IMG/VR virus record: IMGVR_UViG_3300020159_003429
Coordinates: 1 to 20,684 of that record
Strand: one strand, 5' to 3'
Origin: a virus
DNA: 20,684 nt
Position 1 is the stretch's first letter, and the number at the start of each line of letters is the position of its first letter. This document shows positions 1,980 through 9,671 of the stretch, piece by piece. The notes under the pieces are model-generated. The model was given only the letters and a program-made list of their open reading frames with translations. It had not been told where the DNA came from and did no database searches. The position numbers and the translations under genes are program-made.

Positions 1980-2168
1980 ATGTCGAAGAATTCAGAGTGG
2001 CCGCCCCTACTCGTTCGGATCAATCCAGCTGTTATGGATATCTTGAAATTCCATAAGGATCGAACGGGAAATTCGGTTACTTCCATGGCTAGAGATGCTA
2101 TCGAGCGCTATGCTTACGAATTGGAGAAGAAGTATGAAGGAGTATCCCGGGAGGACCCAGATGAGTAA
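1980..2168 (+). CDS. Ribbon-helix-helix DNA-binding protein 1 (CopG/Arc-like)
   Basis: This 62-residue protein begins MSKNSEWPPLLVRINPAV. The ATG at 1980 has GGAG seven bases upstream; a GTG six bases earlier in frame is less well placed. Residues about 9-15 (LLVRINP) form the beta ribbon, followed by two helices (VMDILKFHKDRTG and SVTSMARDAIERYAYELE), the classic RHH layout in which a dimer inserts its ribbon into the DNA major groove. It ends in an acidic, flexible tail. It is the first of three similarly sized RHH proteins within 1 kb; all three keep a His near the end of helix 1. Probably a transcriptional repressor or replication/copy-control factor that binds nearby operators. Confidence 0.75.
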   Translation: MSKNSEWPPLLVRINPAVMDILKFHKDRTGNSVTSMARDAIERYAYELEKKYEGVSREDPDE

Positions 2169-2349
2169 CCTAGATGCTGAACTTGCACTCATAAGTCAAA
2201 ATAGGCGGTAGAAGGCTCGTCCTTTGACCTTAACATTCTCTAACACAGTATCCCTTCTCTTGGAGATACATCAGCAAAAGACACGCAAAACGCATACCGA
2301 GATCGTGGAGGAGGCTCTACTCGCTTATCTGAGTCCTCCTTCGAAGTAA
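2161..2349 (+). CDS. Ribbon-helix-helix protein 2, split by an in-frame amber codon
   Basis: An ATG at 2161 overlaps the end of RHH protein 1 by eight bases and has an excellent SD (GGGAGG, six bases spacing). It encodes MSNLDAELALISQNRR, then TAG at 2209-2211, and the same frame continues KARPLTLTFSNTVSLLLEIH and on to TAA at 2347. The second part is a complete RHH domain: ribbon PLTLTFS, helix 1 ending EIHQQKTRK, helix 2 TEIVEEALLAYL. With the amber codon read, the product is 62 residues, the same length as its neighbour. Alternatively a TTG at 2224, with AGAAGG seven bases upstream, could start a 42-residue protein that is still a full RHH domain, making the first 16 codons a leader peptide. 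A decayed gene is the third option. Confidence 0.6.
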
Positions 2350-2406: not shown

Positions 2407-2477
2407 AACGTATTCTTTTCACAATTTCTTCACGGGTTTTCACAATTTGAGTGCAAAATTGTGAAACGTTCTAAGCT

Positions 2478-2500
2478 AAGCGGGACGCGGGTCTCCGCTT
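2478..2500. repeat. 23-base direct repeat, copy 1, with internal AAGCGG/CCGCTT arms
   Basis: This copy matches 2634-2656 at 22 of 23 bases in the same orientation. Each copy starts AAGCGGGACGCGGG and ends CCGCTT, so each can form a 6-pair GC-rich hairpin. This copy is followed by CTTTTTC, which makes it terminator-like on the plus strand. Both copies lie inside the nested inverted-repeat array. Confidence 0.7.
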
Positions 2501-2633
2501 CTTTTTCACAATTTTCACATATTTAAGGAAGTTCTTACGCGAAGAAAATTCCGGTTCCGGATCCATCCCTTCCTTTTTCTTTTTTACCGACCGCCCAAAA
2601 TATGTGAAAATTGTGAAAAAACGTCGCTCGTTT

Positions 2634-2656
2634 AAGCGGGACGCGGGTTTCCGCTT
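2634..2656. repeat. 23-base direct repeat, copy 2
   Basis: This is the second copy of the AAGCGGGACGCGGG...CCGCTT element, differing at one base from 2478-2500. It runs directly into the left arm of the 2655-2693 palindrome, so the elements are packed edge to edge without spacer sequence. Confidence 0.7.
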
Positions 2657-2696
2657 TCACGGGTTTTCTGTAAAAGTGTGAAAACCCGTGAAAAAA

Positions 2697-2725
2697 TTGT
2701 GAAAAGCCGGTAGGTAGTGTAAAAT
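2697..2725 (+). promoter_or_regulatory. Sigma-70 promoter of RHH protein 3 and the primase operon
   Basis: TTGTGA (2697-2702) and TAAAAT (2720-2725) are separated by exactly 17 bases. The -35 box is part of the last TTGTGAAAA repeat of the array, so any protein bound there would block RNA polymerase. Transcription would start near 2731, within the inverted repeat at 2726-2748. Confidence 0.6.
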
Positions 2726-2765: not shown

Positions 2766-2957
2766 ATGAAATCTCAGATCATGACATTTTCGGCAGATGA
2801 AGAGACCAGGGCTTTGCTCTGGCACCACAAGCAGGTTTACGGGTCGAATTACTCGGCTCTAATCCGCAAGGCACTGGCCGAGTACAAGAAGAATCACTGG
2901 GAGCAGTTCTCGGCTCAGGGTATTATCACTGAGGAGGCGCCATACAATGTCGGCTAA
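2766..2957 (+). CDS. Ribbon-helix-helix DNA-binding protein 3
   Basis: This 63-residue protein begins MKSQIMTFSADEETRALL, with AGGAGG eight bases before the ATG. Residues 2-9 (KSQIMTFS) form the beta ribbon, helix 1 covers DEETRALLWHHKQVYG, and helix 2 covers NYSALIRKALAEYKKN, the CopG/Arc/MetJ fold. The MTFS ribbon resembles LTFS of RHH protein 2, and the helix 1 His is kept in all three paralogues. The gene sits directly between the repeat array and the primase-helicase. Its promoter shares bases with the array, so it is the best candidate for the protein that binds the TTTTCACAATTT sites. It may repress itself and control replication, by analogy with CopG-type copy control. Confidence 0.75.
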   Translation: MKSQIMTFSADEETRALLWHHKQVYGSNYSALIRKALAEYKKNHWEQFSAQGIITEEAPYNVG

Positions 2958-3087
2958 TCTAGATCTGGACTACGAATACGAAGCCCACTGGCATTTCTTG
3001 ATGGAAAAAGAGCGCCTTGAACGTTTAATCGATTTGGATTTAGACCACGATTTTTGGATGCACGAGATTTCCAATACAGTTCACTAA
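2947..3087 (+). CDS. 46-residue acidic hypothetical protein
   Basis: The ATG at 2947 overlaps the RHH3 gene by 11 bases and is preceded by GAGGAGG (ten bases spacing), so it is translationally coupled to RHH3. The sequence starts MSANLDLDYEYEAHWHFL and is rich in Asp, Glu, His and aromatic residues, probably mostly helical and strongly acidic (RLIDLDLDHDFW). I recognise no family. Its position between the RHH regulator and the primase suggests a small accessory replication or regulatory partner. The C-terminus ends four bases before a strong hairpin. Confidence 0.55.
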   Translation: MSANLDLDYEYEAHWHFLMEKERLERLIDLDLDHDFWMHEISNTVH

Positions 3088-3090
3088 CAA

Positions 3091-3122
3091 TTCGGCCCGG
3101 GGTCATCACCCCCCGGGCCGAA
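3091..3122. promoter_or_regulatory. Strong 12-base-pair GC hairpin upstream of the primase gene
   Basis: TTCGGCCCGGGG (3091-3102) pairs perfectly with CCCCGGGCCGAA (3111-3122) around an 8-base loop. There is no T-run after it, so it is more likely an mRNA-processing, stability or attenuation element than a simple terminator. A second small stem follows (AGGCC 3126-3130 with GGCCT 3138-3142) whose loop and right arm contain the primase SD (GGAGGG), suggesting control of translation. Confidence 0.6.
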
Positions 3123-3146: not shown

Positions 3147-5627
3147 ATGACTACATCTGATATAATTTACACAGACGATCAAAAGTCTACAATACCAGGC
3201 TTAGTTCGAATTTCTGAGCTGAGCAACGATATTCTATTCCCGAACGGAGAGTGCAACAAGGCCCACATCACCAAAGTCTTTACAGATCTCGGAATTCCGG
3301 TCATACCCGTAAAAAGCCCCATGAAGACCTGGGATTCGCAGCGCGGCGAGATGTATCAAATCTGGCAGGACGCTTCCAAAGATCCTTCACTACTTACCGG
3401 GCCCAACGCTGAAGGTTACGAGGATTGGAACGCATATTTTAAACACCCGGTCGAAATTGAGTGGCAGAATAAACCACATATGGATCCACGTGCCTGGGAT
3501 CGTAATGAGATCCTCTACACCTACGAATTCCAGGGTAAGAAGTGCGCCAAAAAGGGAAATCCGGATTTTAACATCGGTTACCCCGTTGAGTGTGGGATCG
3601 TCGTCGTTGATCTCGATATGAAGAATGGAATAGATGGGATCAAGGAATTCTGTGAAGTCCTCGGAGTTAAGAGTATCCGGGAGCTAGGCAAGTTCTATGC
3701 TACACGCACTCCGTCTGGCGGCATCCACATTCCGTTCAAGACCGATGAGATATACAGCAATACTGCGGGTCAGATCGCACCTGGTGTCGATATTCGCTCG
3801 CTGAATGGTTTCGTGATGCTTCCGGGGTCGTCCGTACCCACTCCGTCGGGTTGGAGCCACTACACGATCGCTTCTTCAGGTCCGATCCCCACGATTCCTG
3901 AGCGTCTGGCCGAGCGTCTCAAGGCTATAAAGGCCAAGCCGAAGAAGCTGGCGCGCGTCGTGGGGTGCGGGAACGCCGACGACGGCCTTTCCGAAATCTT
4001 AAAGGACGAGACGCACTCAGAGCCGATCCGTAAGGGAACGCGCCACGACAGACTCAAGGCGGCCTTCTCTGATCTACGTGGCATGATTGAAGATGATGAC
4101 CAGTTCGAGGCTGCCTGCAGGAAGTACGTTGATCACCACGAAGTAGGTGGTCGTGGCAAAATCGACACCCGCAATCTGATTGAGTATTTCGTTCAGAAGG
4201 AATATACCGGACCTGTCAAGCTCGATGTGAGCAAGATGGACTGGTGCTCAATGGAGAACGTGGACGACCTTCCGAAGGAGGAGAAGGCTCAGATCAAAGG
4301 GAGGTTCCTTTTAGGCGATGATGCCGAATTCGCTAAGGACTTCATCTCGCAAATCGGTGCGGACAAGATCGTCTATTCCCAGTTCACTTTCTGGAAGTTT
4401 AACGCTTCTAAGGGTATATGGGAGCGCTACGAGACCATCCGCAAGGATATTCTAGACCAGTACTCGAACGTTTGGATCGACAAGAAGCCGGTTCGGATGG
4501 GTGCCGCTCGCGTCATCGGGATCGAAGATACAATTATCATAAATGTTCAGAATGATAAGTTCTTCGAATCAGAGAAGTCTGGTATCGCTTGCAGGAACGG
4601 TTTCTGGTATTTCAAGGACTTCCAGATTCTGAGCCGTCCTCATTCTCCGGATAACCGGAAGCGCTCTTTTGAGGACTACGATTTCGATCCGAAGGCCGAG
4701 AGTGAAGTCATCTCTCCGCTCTACGATGCCACGTTTCAGAATCCGGAAGCCCGTCGCCTGGTTGACGAGTTCATCGGCGTGACGAAGTTCGGTAAGATCA
4801 CCGATACACGCAAGTCTCTTTGGATCTACGGCAAGAAGCGCACGGGAAAGAGCACTATTCTCAGCACGATTGGTCTTCTGTTCGAGAATCATCACTGCTC
4901 AGTTTCACCTCACTCGATGGGCGAGAATTTCCGACTGACGCCCATGGTGGATGCCAAGGTAAATCTGGTATTCGAAGTTCACAACGGAAAGATTAATCTC
5001 AGAGCGTCCGATGTCTTTAAGTGTCTGGTTGCTGGCGACCCGGTATTCATTGAAGCGAAGGGCAAGGATGGGTACCACACTACTCTCAATACGGCCCAGA
5101 TTTACGCAATCAACCGTCCGCCCCAGTTCGACGACCAGAACGGATCGGTTAGCGACCGCATTTTGGCGGTTGAGACCAAGCAGGTGTATACCGAGGAGAT
5201 GGCAAAACCCCAGTCTGAGATACTTGAGGAGTGCCGAAAAGACCTTCCAAACTTCGTCGCGGAGCTCGCGCGCGCTTTCATCCGCTTTTCGAAGCGCAAG
5301 CACTTTGAAGCCATCGAAGAGACCCGCCGCCTAGCCGTCCAGTTCAAGAACGAGAACAGCTACGATCTCTCGTCGTTCCAGGATGAATGCCTCGAGTACG
5401 GTTCCGGATATGAGACAACGTCGGAAGCAGTCTATCTGACGTATCAAACATGGCATCGCCAGGTATTTGGTGAGAGCGCCCAGTGTAATACAAGCAAGAT
5501 CGCCCTGATGCAGAAGCTCACTTGGCCATCTTCAGTCAAGGTAGATGTAAGGATCGGAACACGCCGTGGATTCTCGGGTGTTCGGGTCAAGCAAGAGTAC
5601 CTGTCTATCAATCAGACACACAACTAG
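3147..5627 (+). CDS. Bifunctional primase-polymerase/SF3 (D5-like) helicase
   Basis: This 826-residue replication protein starts at the ATG at 3147, because GGAGGG precedes it by eight bases. An upstream in-frame ATG at 3054 overlaps the previous gene and the hairpin. Residues about 40-250 form a primase-polymerase domain: VDLD (154-157, metal-binding acids), TRTPSGGIHIPF (187-197, catalytic His) and GVDIRSLNGFVMLPGS (213-228). Residues about 390-720 form a D5_N/SF3 helicase: Walker A GKKRTGKST (562-570), Walker B VNLVFE (605-610), sensor IYAINRPP (652-659), and an arginine-finger region SDR (669-671). The C-terminus is probably a small DNA-binding domain. The protein would open the origin, unwind DNA and make primers or extend them in the host cytoplasm. 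The TAG stop is followed in the same frame by the next gene. Confidence 0.92.
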   Translation: MTTSDIIYTDDQKSTIPGLVRISELSNDILFPNGECNKAHITKVFTDLGIPVIPVKSPMKTWDSQRGEMYQIWQDASKDPSLLTGPNAEGYEDWNAYFKHPVEIEWQNKPHMDPRAWDRNEILYTYEFQGKKCAKKGNPDFNIGYPVECGIVVVDLDMKNGIDGIKEFCEVLGVKSIRELGKFYATRTPSGGIHIPFKTDEIYSNTAGQIAPGVDIRSLNGFVMLPGSSVPTPSGWSHYTIASSGPIPTIPERLAERLKAIKAKPKKLARVVGCGNADDGLSEILKDETHSEPIRKGTRHDRLKAAFSDLRGMIEDDDQFEAACRKYVDHHEVGGRGKIDTRNLIEYFVQKEYTGPVKLDVSKMDWCSMENVDDLPKEEKAQIKGRFLLGDDAEFAKDFISQIGADKIVYSQFTFWKFNASKGIWERYETIRKDILDQYSNVWIDKKPVRMGAARVIGIEDTIIINVQNDKFFESEKSGIACRNGFWYFKDFQILSRPHSPDNRKRSFEDYDFDPKAESEVISPLYDATFQNPEARRLVDEFIGVTKFGKITDTRKSLWIYGKKRTGKSTILSTIGLLFENHHCSVSPHSMGENFRLTPMVDAKVNLVFEVHNGKINLRASDVFKCLVAGDPVFIEAKGKDGYHTTLNTAQIYAINRPPQFDDQNGSVSDRILAVETKQVYTEEMAKPQSEILEECRKDLPNFVAELARAFIRFSKRKHFEAIEETRRLAVQFKNENSYDLSSFQDECLEYGSGYETTSEAVYLTYQTWHRQVFGESAQCNTSKIALMQKLTWPSSVKVDVRIGTRRGFSGVRVKQEYLSINQTHN

Positions 5628-7704: not shown

Positions 7705-9671
7705 TATACGATCCCAGGAGCGCCAGCAGCCTCAGCCACTAGAGCTTCAGCCCCAGGGAGCGGAGCAGTCGCCGCAGGAAGCGCAAGCTGGCTCGCCTCA
7801 GCAGGTGATACCTGGACGCCGAGCTCAGGAGTCGGCAAATTCGGGATGACCGGCTCAGGAGCTTGCATAACCGTCAGATCCTTGACGAACTGGCGTATCA
7901 GCTCTAGCTTCTCCTCACCCTCACCCAGCTTCTTGCCCAAAGCGTAATACTGTAAAGCCAGTTTCTGAGCCAGCTGGAGGTTATCCATCGGATCCGGAGC
8001 CGTGTACTCAGTATCCTCGAGCATCTTCTCGAATACTTCCTTGAGGTACTCGTCTTGAGCCGTGGATAGGAGGTTAGAAGCCTCAATATCCGGGAAGTTC
8101 AGGAGCTCGCGCTGCTCCACCGGATCCAGGAGACCACGCTTCACGAGATCGTCGATGGCCTCGAGACGGCCAGCGGGATCATTCGGAAGGCTGGAGGACG
8201 GGAATACTGAGATCGAGTAATCCTCCTCTGCCACTTTCACGTGCTTGAAATCTAGCTTCTGCATGCCCTTAGGACTAGTGATATTGACCGGGTAGTGCCC
8301 CTTGTTGGCTTCTGCAATACGTTTTACCATAGTCATAGCACACTTCGCGATATCTACGAAGAACTGCTCGATATCCTGCGAGAATTCCAGGAACCGGGCA
8401 GACTCAATGTCGTTATACTCACGGAGGGCCACGCCGGAGTTCAAACCAGCGGGCTTCTGGGCGAACGCGGATAGGCTCGAAACGCCTGAAATCTGGTACG
8501 AGCGCCCGATCAGAGTGTCCAAGTTCCGATAGAATTCGGGAGGCAGGACTGGAGGTGTGATGTACTCAGGCTTGTTCCCCGTGTACTTGATGATAGTACC
8601 AATGTTATTATTGAACGACTCAACCGGGATCTGGCTACCATTCTGCACGAGAATCTTGAATGATCCGGACAAGTGGTAGGACCGCTGCTGGACGGCCAGG
8701 AGCTTGTTGATCTCGAGCTGCGTGGACTTCAGCTGCTCAGCGAGAGACTGGCTCCAATAACCTGAGAACGGCTGGGTCCACGATATCTTGCTGAACGGGA
8801 ACTGCTTTTCGGTCCATTCCCCATACCCAAGGAGACAGTCAGGAACGGCCAAGAGATGCCGTCCATCCTTCTTTTCCTCTCCGGATCCGATCTTCCAGGC
8901 CTCTAATACTTCGATCTGGTCCGTCGCCGGGGATGTCGAGTGTATCCGAACGTTGAATAGCTGCTGACTCTGTGCGATCTCGTCTTTCTTCTCTGGGAAT
9001 AGATCCATAAGGGCCTGACGGCTAACCAGCTTAATGCGATACATGTGAGTGGGAGTAGCACCACCGACGCACTCCATCTCGTCAACGAAGATCTCATATG
9101 GGATGACACGTTCTAATTTTACTCGATCATTTTCCGCAAAGATATGGACAAAACCATCTCCATAAACCAGGGCATCACGAAGTACACTTCGTGACATCGA
9201 ATAAACGTCATTCTCCTGAAAGATCCCATCCGCAAAGTACCCCAGTTTTTTGGCTGCCTTCACTGCCCGGAACCCACCAGCGTTCGTAAGGAAGCGCGCG
9301 CGGGGGCGAAGACGGCTTAGCTTTGAGATGAGGGTATCAATATTCGACTGGACTGCGTTAAACGTCAGCCGGTCCGGAAGAACGTTCGCCGTGTTCCAGT
9401 TAGATCCGGATGAACGGGAATAGCTAGCAATATAATCGGGGACACCGTAGAGCCTAGACTCAATACGGTATCTGGCGATACGTGATTGGATGTCGCGTTC
9501 CAACAACGTAATCATTTGCTTTACGGAGTCAAGTACCTCGTAAGCATCATCAAAATACCACCATTGACTCGCTGGAGTATAATTATCTGAGTTAGAAGAA
9601 TTTACCTGGATCTTCTTGTTGGGGTTTACGGCCTTAACGTCATTTAGCCGGAAGTCTTTGCTATCTGCCAT
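7704..9671 (-). CDS. Portal protein
   Basis: This 655-residue protein starts MADSKDFRLNDVKAVNPNKK, with AGGAG six bases upstream of the ATG. It carries portal features: an N-terminal helical region, the stem-like segment LTFNAVQSNIDTLISKLSRL followed by RPRARFL (about residues 105-130), a region of helices around ALREYNDIESARFLEFSQDI, and a C-terminal Pro/Ala-rich tail that may form the barrel or crown. Length is typical for portals of short-tailed phages. As a dodecamer it forms the DNA entry channel at one capsid vertex and docks the terminase. It follows the terminase genes in the same operon. No truncation is seen. Confidence 0.85.
   Translation of the reverse strand: MADSKDFRLNDVKAVNPNKKIQVNSSNSDNYTPASQWWYFDDAYEVLDSVKQMITLLERDIQSRIARYRIESRLYGVPDYIASYSRSSGSNWNTANVLPDRLTFNAVQSNIDTLISKLSRLRPRARFLTNAGGFRAVKAAKKLGYFADGIFQENDVYSMSRSVLRDALVYGDGFVHIFAENDRVKLERVIPYEIFVDEMECVGGATPTHMYRIKLVSRQALMDLFPEKKDEIAQSQQLFNVRIHSTSPATDQIEVLEAWKIGSGEEKKDGRHLLAVPDCLLGYGEWTEKQFPFSKISWTQPFSGYWSQSLAEQLKSTQLEINKLLAVQQRSYHLSGSFKILVQNGSQIPVESFNNNIGTIIKYTGNKPEYITPPVLPPEFYRNLDTLIGRSYQISGVSSLSAFAQKPAGLNSGVALREYNDIESARFLEFSQDIEQFFVDIAKCAMTMVKRIAEANKGHYPVNITSPKGMQKLDFKHVKVAEEDYSISVFPSSSLPNDPAGRLEAIDDLVKRGLLDPVEQRELLNFPDIEASNLLSTAQDEYLKEVFEKMLEDTEYTAPDPMDNLQLAQKLALQYYALGKKLGEGEEKLELIRQFVKDLTVMQAPEPVIPNLPTPELGVQVSPAEASQLALPAATAPLPGAEALVAEAAGAPGIV

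Follow-up and report, generated by a model that had tools for sequence, protein, structure and literature searches.

The closest described counterparts of the array reported here are the replication origins of P4, of the PICI satellites and of the archaeal plasmid pRN1 from Sulfolobus. The winged-helix domain of the P4 alpha protein binds the repeats of the P4 origin, after which alpha unwinds the DNA and primes synthesis (PMC4234260). PICI satellite origins carry two iteron sets that flank a central region, an organisation reported in no other known bacterial replicon, and the origin of the E. coli satellite EcCICFT073 is functional (PMC6092414). SaPI Rep binds its iterons apparently as two hexamers, and an analogy between SaPI and SV40 origins has been drawn (PMC7581432). 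In pRN1, the proposed origin is an essential stem-loop whose arms measure 21 nt and whose loop measures 58 nt, and the replication operon begins with a gene for an RHH-type repressor (PMC4234260).

We analysed a window of 20,684 bp, the whole of IMG/VR virus record IMGVR_UViG_3300020159_003429, from an uncultured phage. The record is classed as linear in IMG/VR and is perhaps a fragment. It encodes its own portal, TerL and TerS, genes of a kind that P4/PICI satellite genomes lack, and is a phage, not a satellite. A tandem run of related-looking small proteins (115–171 aa) is encoded on the minus strand at 330–1761; these are perhaps virion decoration proteins, and a family match sought for one of them (330–845) was not found.

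An earlier reading of the letters alone (the original prediction) had proposed that a nested array of inverted repeats at 2416–2705 is an origin with protein-binding iterons beside a primase-helicase. Judged from its sequence, this array is very probably where the phage's own primase-helicase starts DNA copying.

Two mirror-image modules of six iterons

The candidate origin array (2416–2705, assigned to no strand, centre near 2560.5) is 290 bases long and contains 12 copies of TTTTCAC-type sites arranged as two mirrored six-iteron modules. Read as TTTTCAC, the site polarity is + + + - + + on the left and - - + - - - on the right. Each module comprises three sites at distances of 11 and 10 bp, a reversed site after a further 24 bp and then, 41–42 bp beyond the reversed single, two sites 9 bp apart, for a span of 95–96 bp. 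The left module (2416–2518, plus strand) has its triad at 2416, 2427 (a TCTTCAC variant) and 2437, its reversed site at 2461 (GTGAAAC) and its duo at 2503 and 2512, with spacings of 11, 10, 24, 42 and 9 (span 96). The right module (2604–2705, minus strand) has its duo at 2604 and 2613, its reversed site at 2654 (CTTTCAC) and its triad at 2678, 2688 and 2699; counted from outside, the spacings are 11, 10, 24, 41 and 9 (span 95).

The 7-base core word is not matched exactly at three of the 12 sites (2427, 2461 and 2654). TTTTCAC/GTGAAAA occurs 10 times in the 20.7 kb, nine of them inside the array, and TTTCAC/GTGAAA occurs 22 times in the window, 11 of them inside the array. The core had been said to recur at least six times; this is correct for TTCACAATTT (6 copies) and too high for exact TTTTCACAATTT (5 copies).

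Direct reading recovered the repeats of the original prediction. The outer arms (2416–2441/2680–2705) pair at 25 of 26 positions and extend to 2415–2466/2655–2706 (52 nt, 83%). The inner arms, 2502–2524 (plus strand, holding the left duo) and 2598–2620 (minus strand, holding the right duo), form a perfect 23-bp inverted repeat around a 73-nt loop, 5' of the operon. The local palindromes at 2438–2466 and 2655–2693 are both present. Perfect inverted repeats within 300 bp reached at most 13 bp in 50 dinucleotide shuffles of the entire window, compared with 23 bp for the inner arms. The array is real and lies far beyond chance, and its DNA fold z-score is -10.7. GC skew of the window follows gene strand and is uninformative here.

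The 85-bp central spacer between the duos (2519–2603, no strand) contains a polypyrimidine tract and is a candidate melting region, with a GC content of 40% vs 50% for the window. The single-duo gap is 60% GC and holds an imperfect GC-rich hairpin (AAGCGG...CCGCTT; repeat H1, 2477–2500, plus strand), of which a 96% identical copy in the same orientation (repeat H2, 2633–2656, plus strand) occupies the mirrored gap; these are the predicted direct repeats. The near-symmetry that had been claimed holds for the modules and fails at H1 and H2, whose shared direct orientation breaks the mirror, though each is a small hairpin. The hairpin copy at 2482–2495 precedes a T-rich tract and is terminator-like. 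It had been said that no coding sequence fits the region; two mechanically called ORFs (54 and 97 aa) do run across it, but neither has any support.

Terminal inverted repeats of 26 bp and a strong RNA fold predicted on either strand are also what a MITE-like remnant of a mobile element, or a structured RNA, might present. We consider this very unlikely: no target-site duplication was seen in the flanks, the array is present as a single copy in the record, and neither kind of element would be expected to have regularly spaced iterons. The RNA fold is equal on both strands because of the symmetry of the DNA, which counts against an RNA. Membership of an RNA family was rejected after an Rfam search gave no credible match.

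A primase-helicase operon lies downstream of the array

A candidate sigma-70 promoter (2697–2725, plus strand; TTGTGA-17-TAAAAT, a match to consensus only) has its -35 element inside the outermost iteron. Between this promoter and a small RHH-like gene, and apart from the iterons, is a candidate RHH operator (2725–2749, no strand), a perfect 8-bp inverted repeat of the form TTATAGGG-N9-CCCTATAA. The RHH-like gene (2766–2957, plus strand) encodes 63 aa and resembles ORF56 of pRN1 in position; its Pfam RHH_1 match (E 0.023) is below the cut-off. Three RHH genes had been predicted, and this weak match is the only one found. A second RHH-like gene (2161–2349, plus strand) has an in-frame TAG at 2209–2211; because TAG is a normal stop elsewhere (e.g. 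in the primase gene), the gene is either a copy in decay or encodes a shorter protein with its start at TTG 2224. A 46-aa ORF (2948–3088) lies between the RHH-like gene and the primase gene, and between that ORF and the primase gene is a perfect 12-bp GC-rich inverted repeat (3091–3122), terminator-like on the minus strand and a possible attenuator on the plus strand.

The proposed initiator, a P4-family-like PrimPol-SF3 primase-helicase of 826 aa (3147–5627, plus strand), begins 0.4 kb downstream of the array. Pfam places a Prim-Pol domain at its N-terminus and also identifies a DUF5906/SF3 helicase. An SF3 helicase of the P4-family/D5 kind is encoded beside the array, with a TIGR01613 match (E 1.5e-24) below the curated cut-off. 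Profile comparison matches the protein to the EcCICFT073 primase as well as to P4 alpha and ORF904, and a profile built from an alignment that it heads finds the PDB chains of 7ola, poxvirus D5 and pRN1 ORF904. The 7ola entry is named 'DNA primase', and we take it to be the SaPI5 primase-helicase. By analogy with P4 alpha, the window initiator may recognise the iterons through a C-terminal winged helix.

Comparison with described origins

In the annotated P4 sequence (NC_001609), the type-1 repeats of ori are at 9310, 9320, 9331, (reversed) 9353, 9396 and 9406, giving spacings from triad to duo of 10, 11, 22, 43 and 10 and a span of 96. P4 ori1 resembles the window in its six iterons disposed as triad, reversed single and duo, as well as in its SF3 primase-helicase initiator. 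The two differ in that P4 has one module at ori, with additional iterons located 4.7 kb away in two crr repeats of 120 bp, and in that its iteron, GGTGAACA, is not the window word. The single-duo gap is AT-rich in P4 (17% GC) whereas the window has the 60%-GC hairpin there, and the primase of P4 alpha is of the Toprim type, unlike the PrimPol of the window. Relative to module order, the GTGA of the window and the GGTGA of P4 point in opposite directions, which prevents alignment of the two iterons as homologous words; GTGAAAA does resemble GGTGAACA, but what the two origins share is layout, not sequence.

The EcCICFT073 origin (L193 4010–4237, E. coli CFT073 PICI) contains the six-site 3-1-2 module twice, with the iteron GGTAGACA. 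PICI/SaPI origins, of which EcCICFT073 was the one tested, share with the window a mirrored pair of modules around a centre, the 3-1-2 spacing and an adjacent initiator gene. Triads point to the centre in EcCICFT073 and duos do so in the window; the EcCICFT073 origin is 3' of its initiator gene, whereas the window array is 5'; and EcCICFT073 is a satellite, whereas the window phage has its own head genes. The concentric arrangement had been described as unfamiliar from known phage origins, but two iteron sets flanking a centre are established in PICI satellites (PMC6092414).

The order of a CopG/RHH-type gene followed by a PrimPol-SF3 gene in pRN1 (orf56/orf904) is that of the window, with the reservation that the RHH match there is weak. 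The arms of the pRN1 stem (L139 5084–5104/5163–5183) contain TGTCCA twice, 9 bp apart, so the stem-loop can be read as an inner duo pair; the related plasmid pHEN7 gave a duo / duo match in the geometry scan described below. Unlike the window, pRN1 shows the inner duo pair only, triads were not found, and the stem-loop is 3' of orf904, whereas the similar inverted repeat of the window lies 5' of the replication genes. SV40 and papillomavirus SF3 origins also have short opposed sites that load two SF3 hexamers, but differ from the window in unrelated sites, an N-terminal DNA-binding domain and another geometry.

Among the features of P4/PICI-type origins, the window has the cluster of direct and inverted iterons, the two flanking sets and the P4-like spacing. 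The array is best read as a phage member of the P4/PICI/pRN1 class of origins, a variant in which the duos face inward and the initiator gene lies downstream.

The spacing geometry recurs at P4-type primase loci

We collected distant PrimPol/P4-type primase loci from IMG/VR. Exact 8-mer arrays (at least 5 copies, both orientations) were present at 11 of 38 primase loci, a count that takes in the window and P4, and at 0 of 82 terminase loci. Iterons are found at the 3' end of the primase gene in L105 (GGTGACGCA), L124 (AGGTTCCG) and L108 (GTAACATA), and also in L104. All 12 sites are present in L124, with spacings of 9, 11, 18, 48, 9 / 9, 48, 18, 11, 8. No other IMG/VR contig has the exact concentric iteron pattern, since the iteron word is different there; what recurs elsewhere is the spacing.

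A motif-free geometry scan scored L124 at 12, the window at 10, L105 and L108 at 9 each and P4 at 6, with lower scores in five further loci, against 1 of 85 controls and 0 of 114 shuffles. Because P4, the window and L124 had served to tune the template, their own scores are no test, and a held-out set was used: 30 TIGR01613 (P4-primase family) loci from bacterial genomes of one phylum, with the template unchanged. Eleven of the 30 scored, vs 1 of 150 shuffles. One of them, L179, has 12 sites, exact or with 1 mismatch, at spacings of 10, 11, 12, 44, 8 / 8, 43, 11, 12, 10. Seven of the 11 matches are intergenic and sit directly 3' of the primase stop codon; the remaining four, L177, L178, L189 and L190 (score 4), overlap with the primase reading frame and could be chance matches. 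Matched GC-rich controls (31 loci, 256 kb) gave four matches, all with motifs of C and G only. When such motifs were left out, L189 being one such match, the count was 10 of 30 held-out loci vs 0 of 31 controls.

The array is just 3' of the primase in most array loci and 5' of it in the window. Modules are single in P4 ori, paired with duos inward in the window, L124, L105, L108 and L179, and paired with triads inward in EcCICFT073.

Relatives covering the array itself were sought with single proteins (primase, terminase, portal) in IMG/VR and by portal among genome contigs, and none was found by either route; a search of a cultured-phage collection with the array region gave no convincing DNA match. 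The closest terminase/portal relatives (L011 and L012, 69% and 80% identical) are contigs of ~6 kb that end before the array, and in the distant relatives G003 and G005 neither a primase match nor the module was found.

The primase-helicase is the likelier partner of the array

RHH proteins had been put forward as possible binders of the array, together with the primase-helicase. RHH repressors are known to bind short repeats in direct or inverted orientation; the window has an RHH-like gene 60 bp downstream of the array and a promoter -35 that overlaps the outermost iteron, and the pRN1 operon starts with such a repressor. One or more RHH proteins might accordingly bind the sites, spread over the array and repress the RHH/primase operon, the array having no origin function. 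We regard this operator or silencer as improbable. The palindrome at 2725–2749, with its 8-bp arms, fits an RHH operator better, and at ten further array loci of like layout none of the small ORFs scanned nearby matched an RHH family, although Pfam is weak on short proteins. The layout instead follows primases, including two established origins (P4 and EcCICFT073); its common partner is the primase-helicase, which is also the likelier origin binder here. The RHH protein remains a candidate binder of the array.

Short-repeat arrays beside RHH genes also resemble centromeres of the ParG/omega type, and the array could serve partition or copy control as a centromere-like site bound by an RHH adaptor. 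This is extremely improbable, given that none of the scanned window proteins resembled ParA or ParM and that the geometry fits origins.

The geometry shared with P4 and EcCICFT073 and the enrichment at P4-type primases support the iteron origin that the original prediction had proposed beside the primase-helicase. We consider it highly likely that the array is a replication origin with the downstream primase-helicase as its iteron-binding initiator, one hexamer per module.

A model for initiation

What the sequence shows is the array, its geometry, its neighbouring genes, the homology of the initiator and the recurrence of the layout; binding, hexamer loading, the site of melting, bidirectionality and autoregulation are steps that we infer. 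The primase-helicase (PrimPol primase, SF3 helicase and P4-type C-terminus) would recognise the TTTTCAC iterons through its C-terminal part, and each six-site module would receive one helicase hexamer. With the modules in mirror orientation, the two helicases would face one another over the 85-bp spacer, and this spacer would be melted; the PrimPol domain would then prime both strands, and replication would proceed both ways. The RHH protein would act at the separate palindrome. Since the -35 of the operon promoter is inside the outermost iteron, binding of the initiator could turn down its own operon, an overlap that would couple origin occupancy to initiator supply.

Discussion

The concentric layout of two iteron sets is not unique to this phage; the shared 3-1-2 spacing rule may be new. 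A prior description of the rule was not found in the literature covered, a scope set outside the primary P4 and SaPI papers. We lean, if only slightly, towards a general form of the rule, in which the origins of P4-type SF3 initiators would follow one sequence-independent grammar: a 3-1-2 module, usually of ~95 bp, used singly or as a mirrored pair, with pRN1-like stem-loops corresponding to the inner duo pair, and with iteron words that diverge freely under a spacing that the shape of the hexamer keeps constant.

The analysis gives a location for the probable replication origin of an uncultured phage, together with a likely initiator, and it would extend the PICI-type origin organisation to true phages and plasmids. 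The spacing rule would let origins be found from sequence without knowledge of the iteron word, and would make the loading of two SF3 hexamers at an origin testable.
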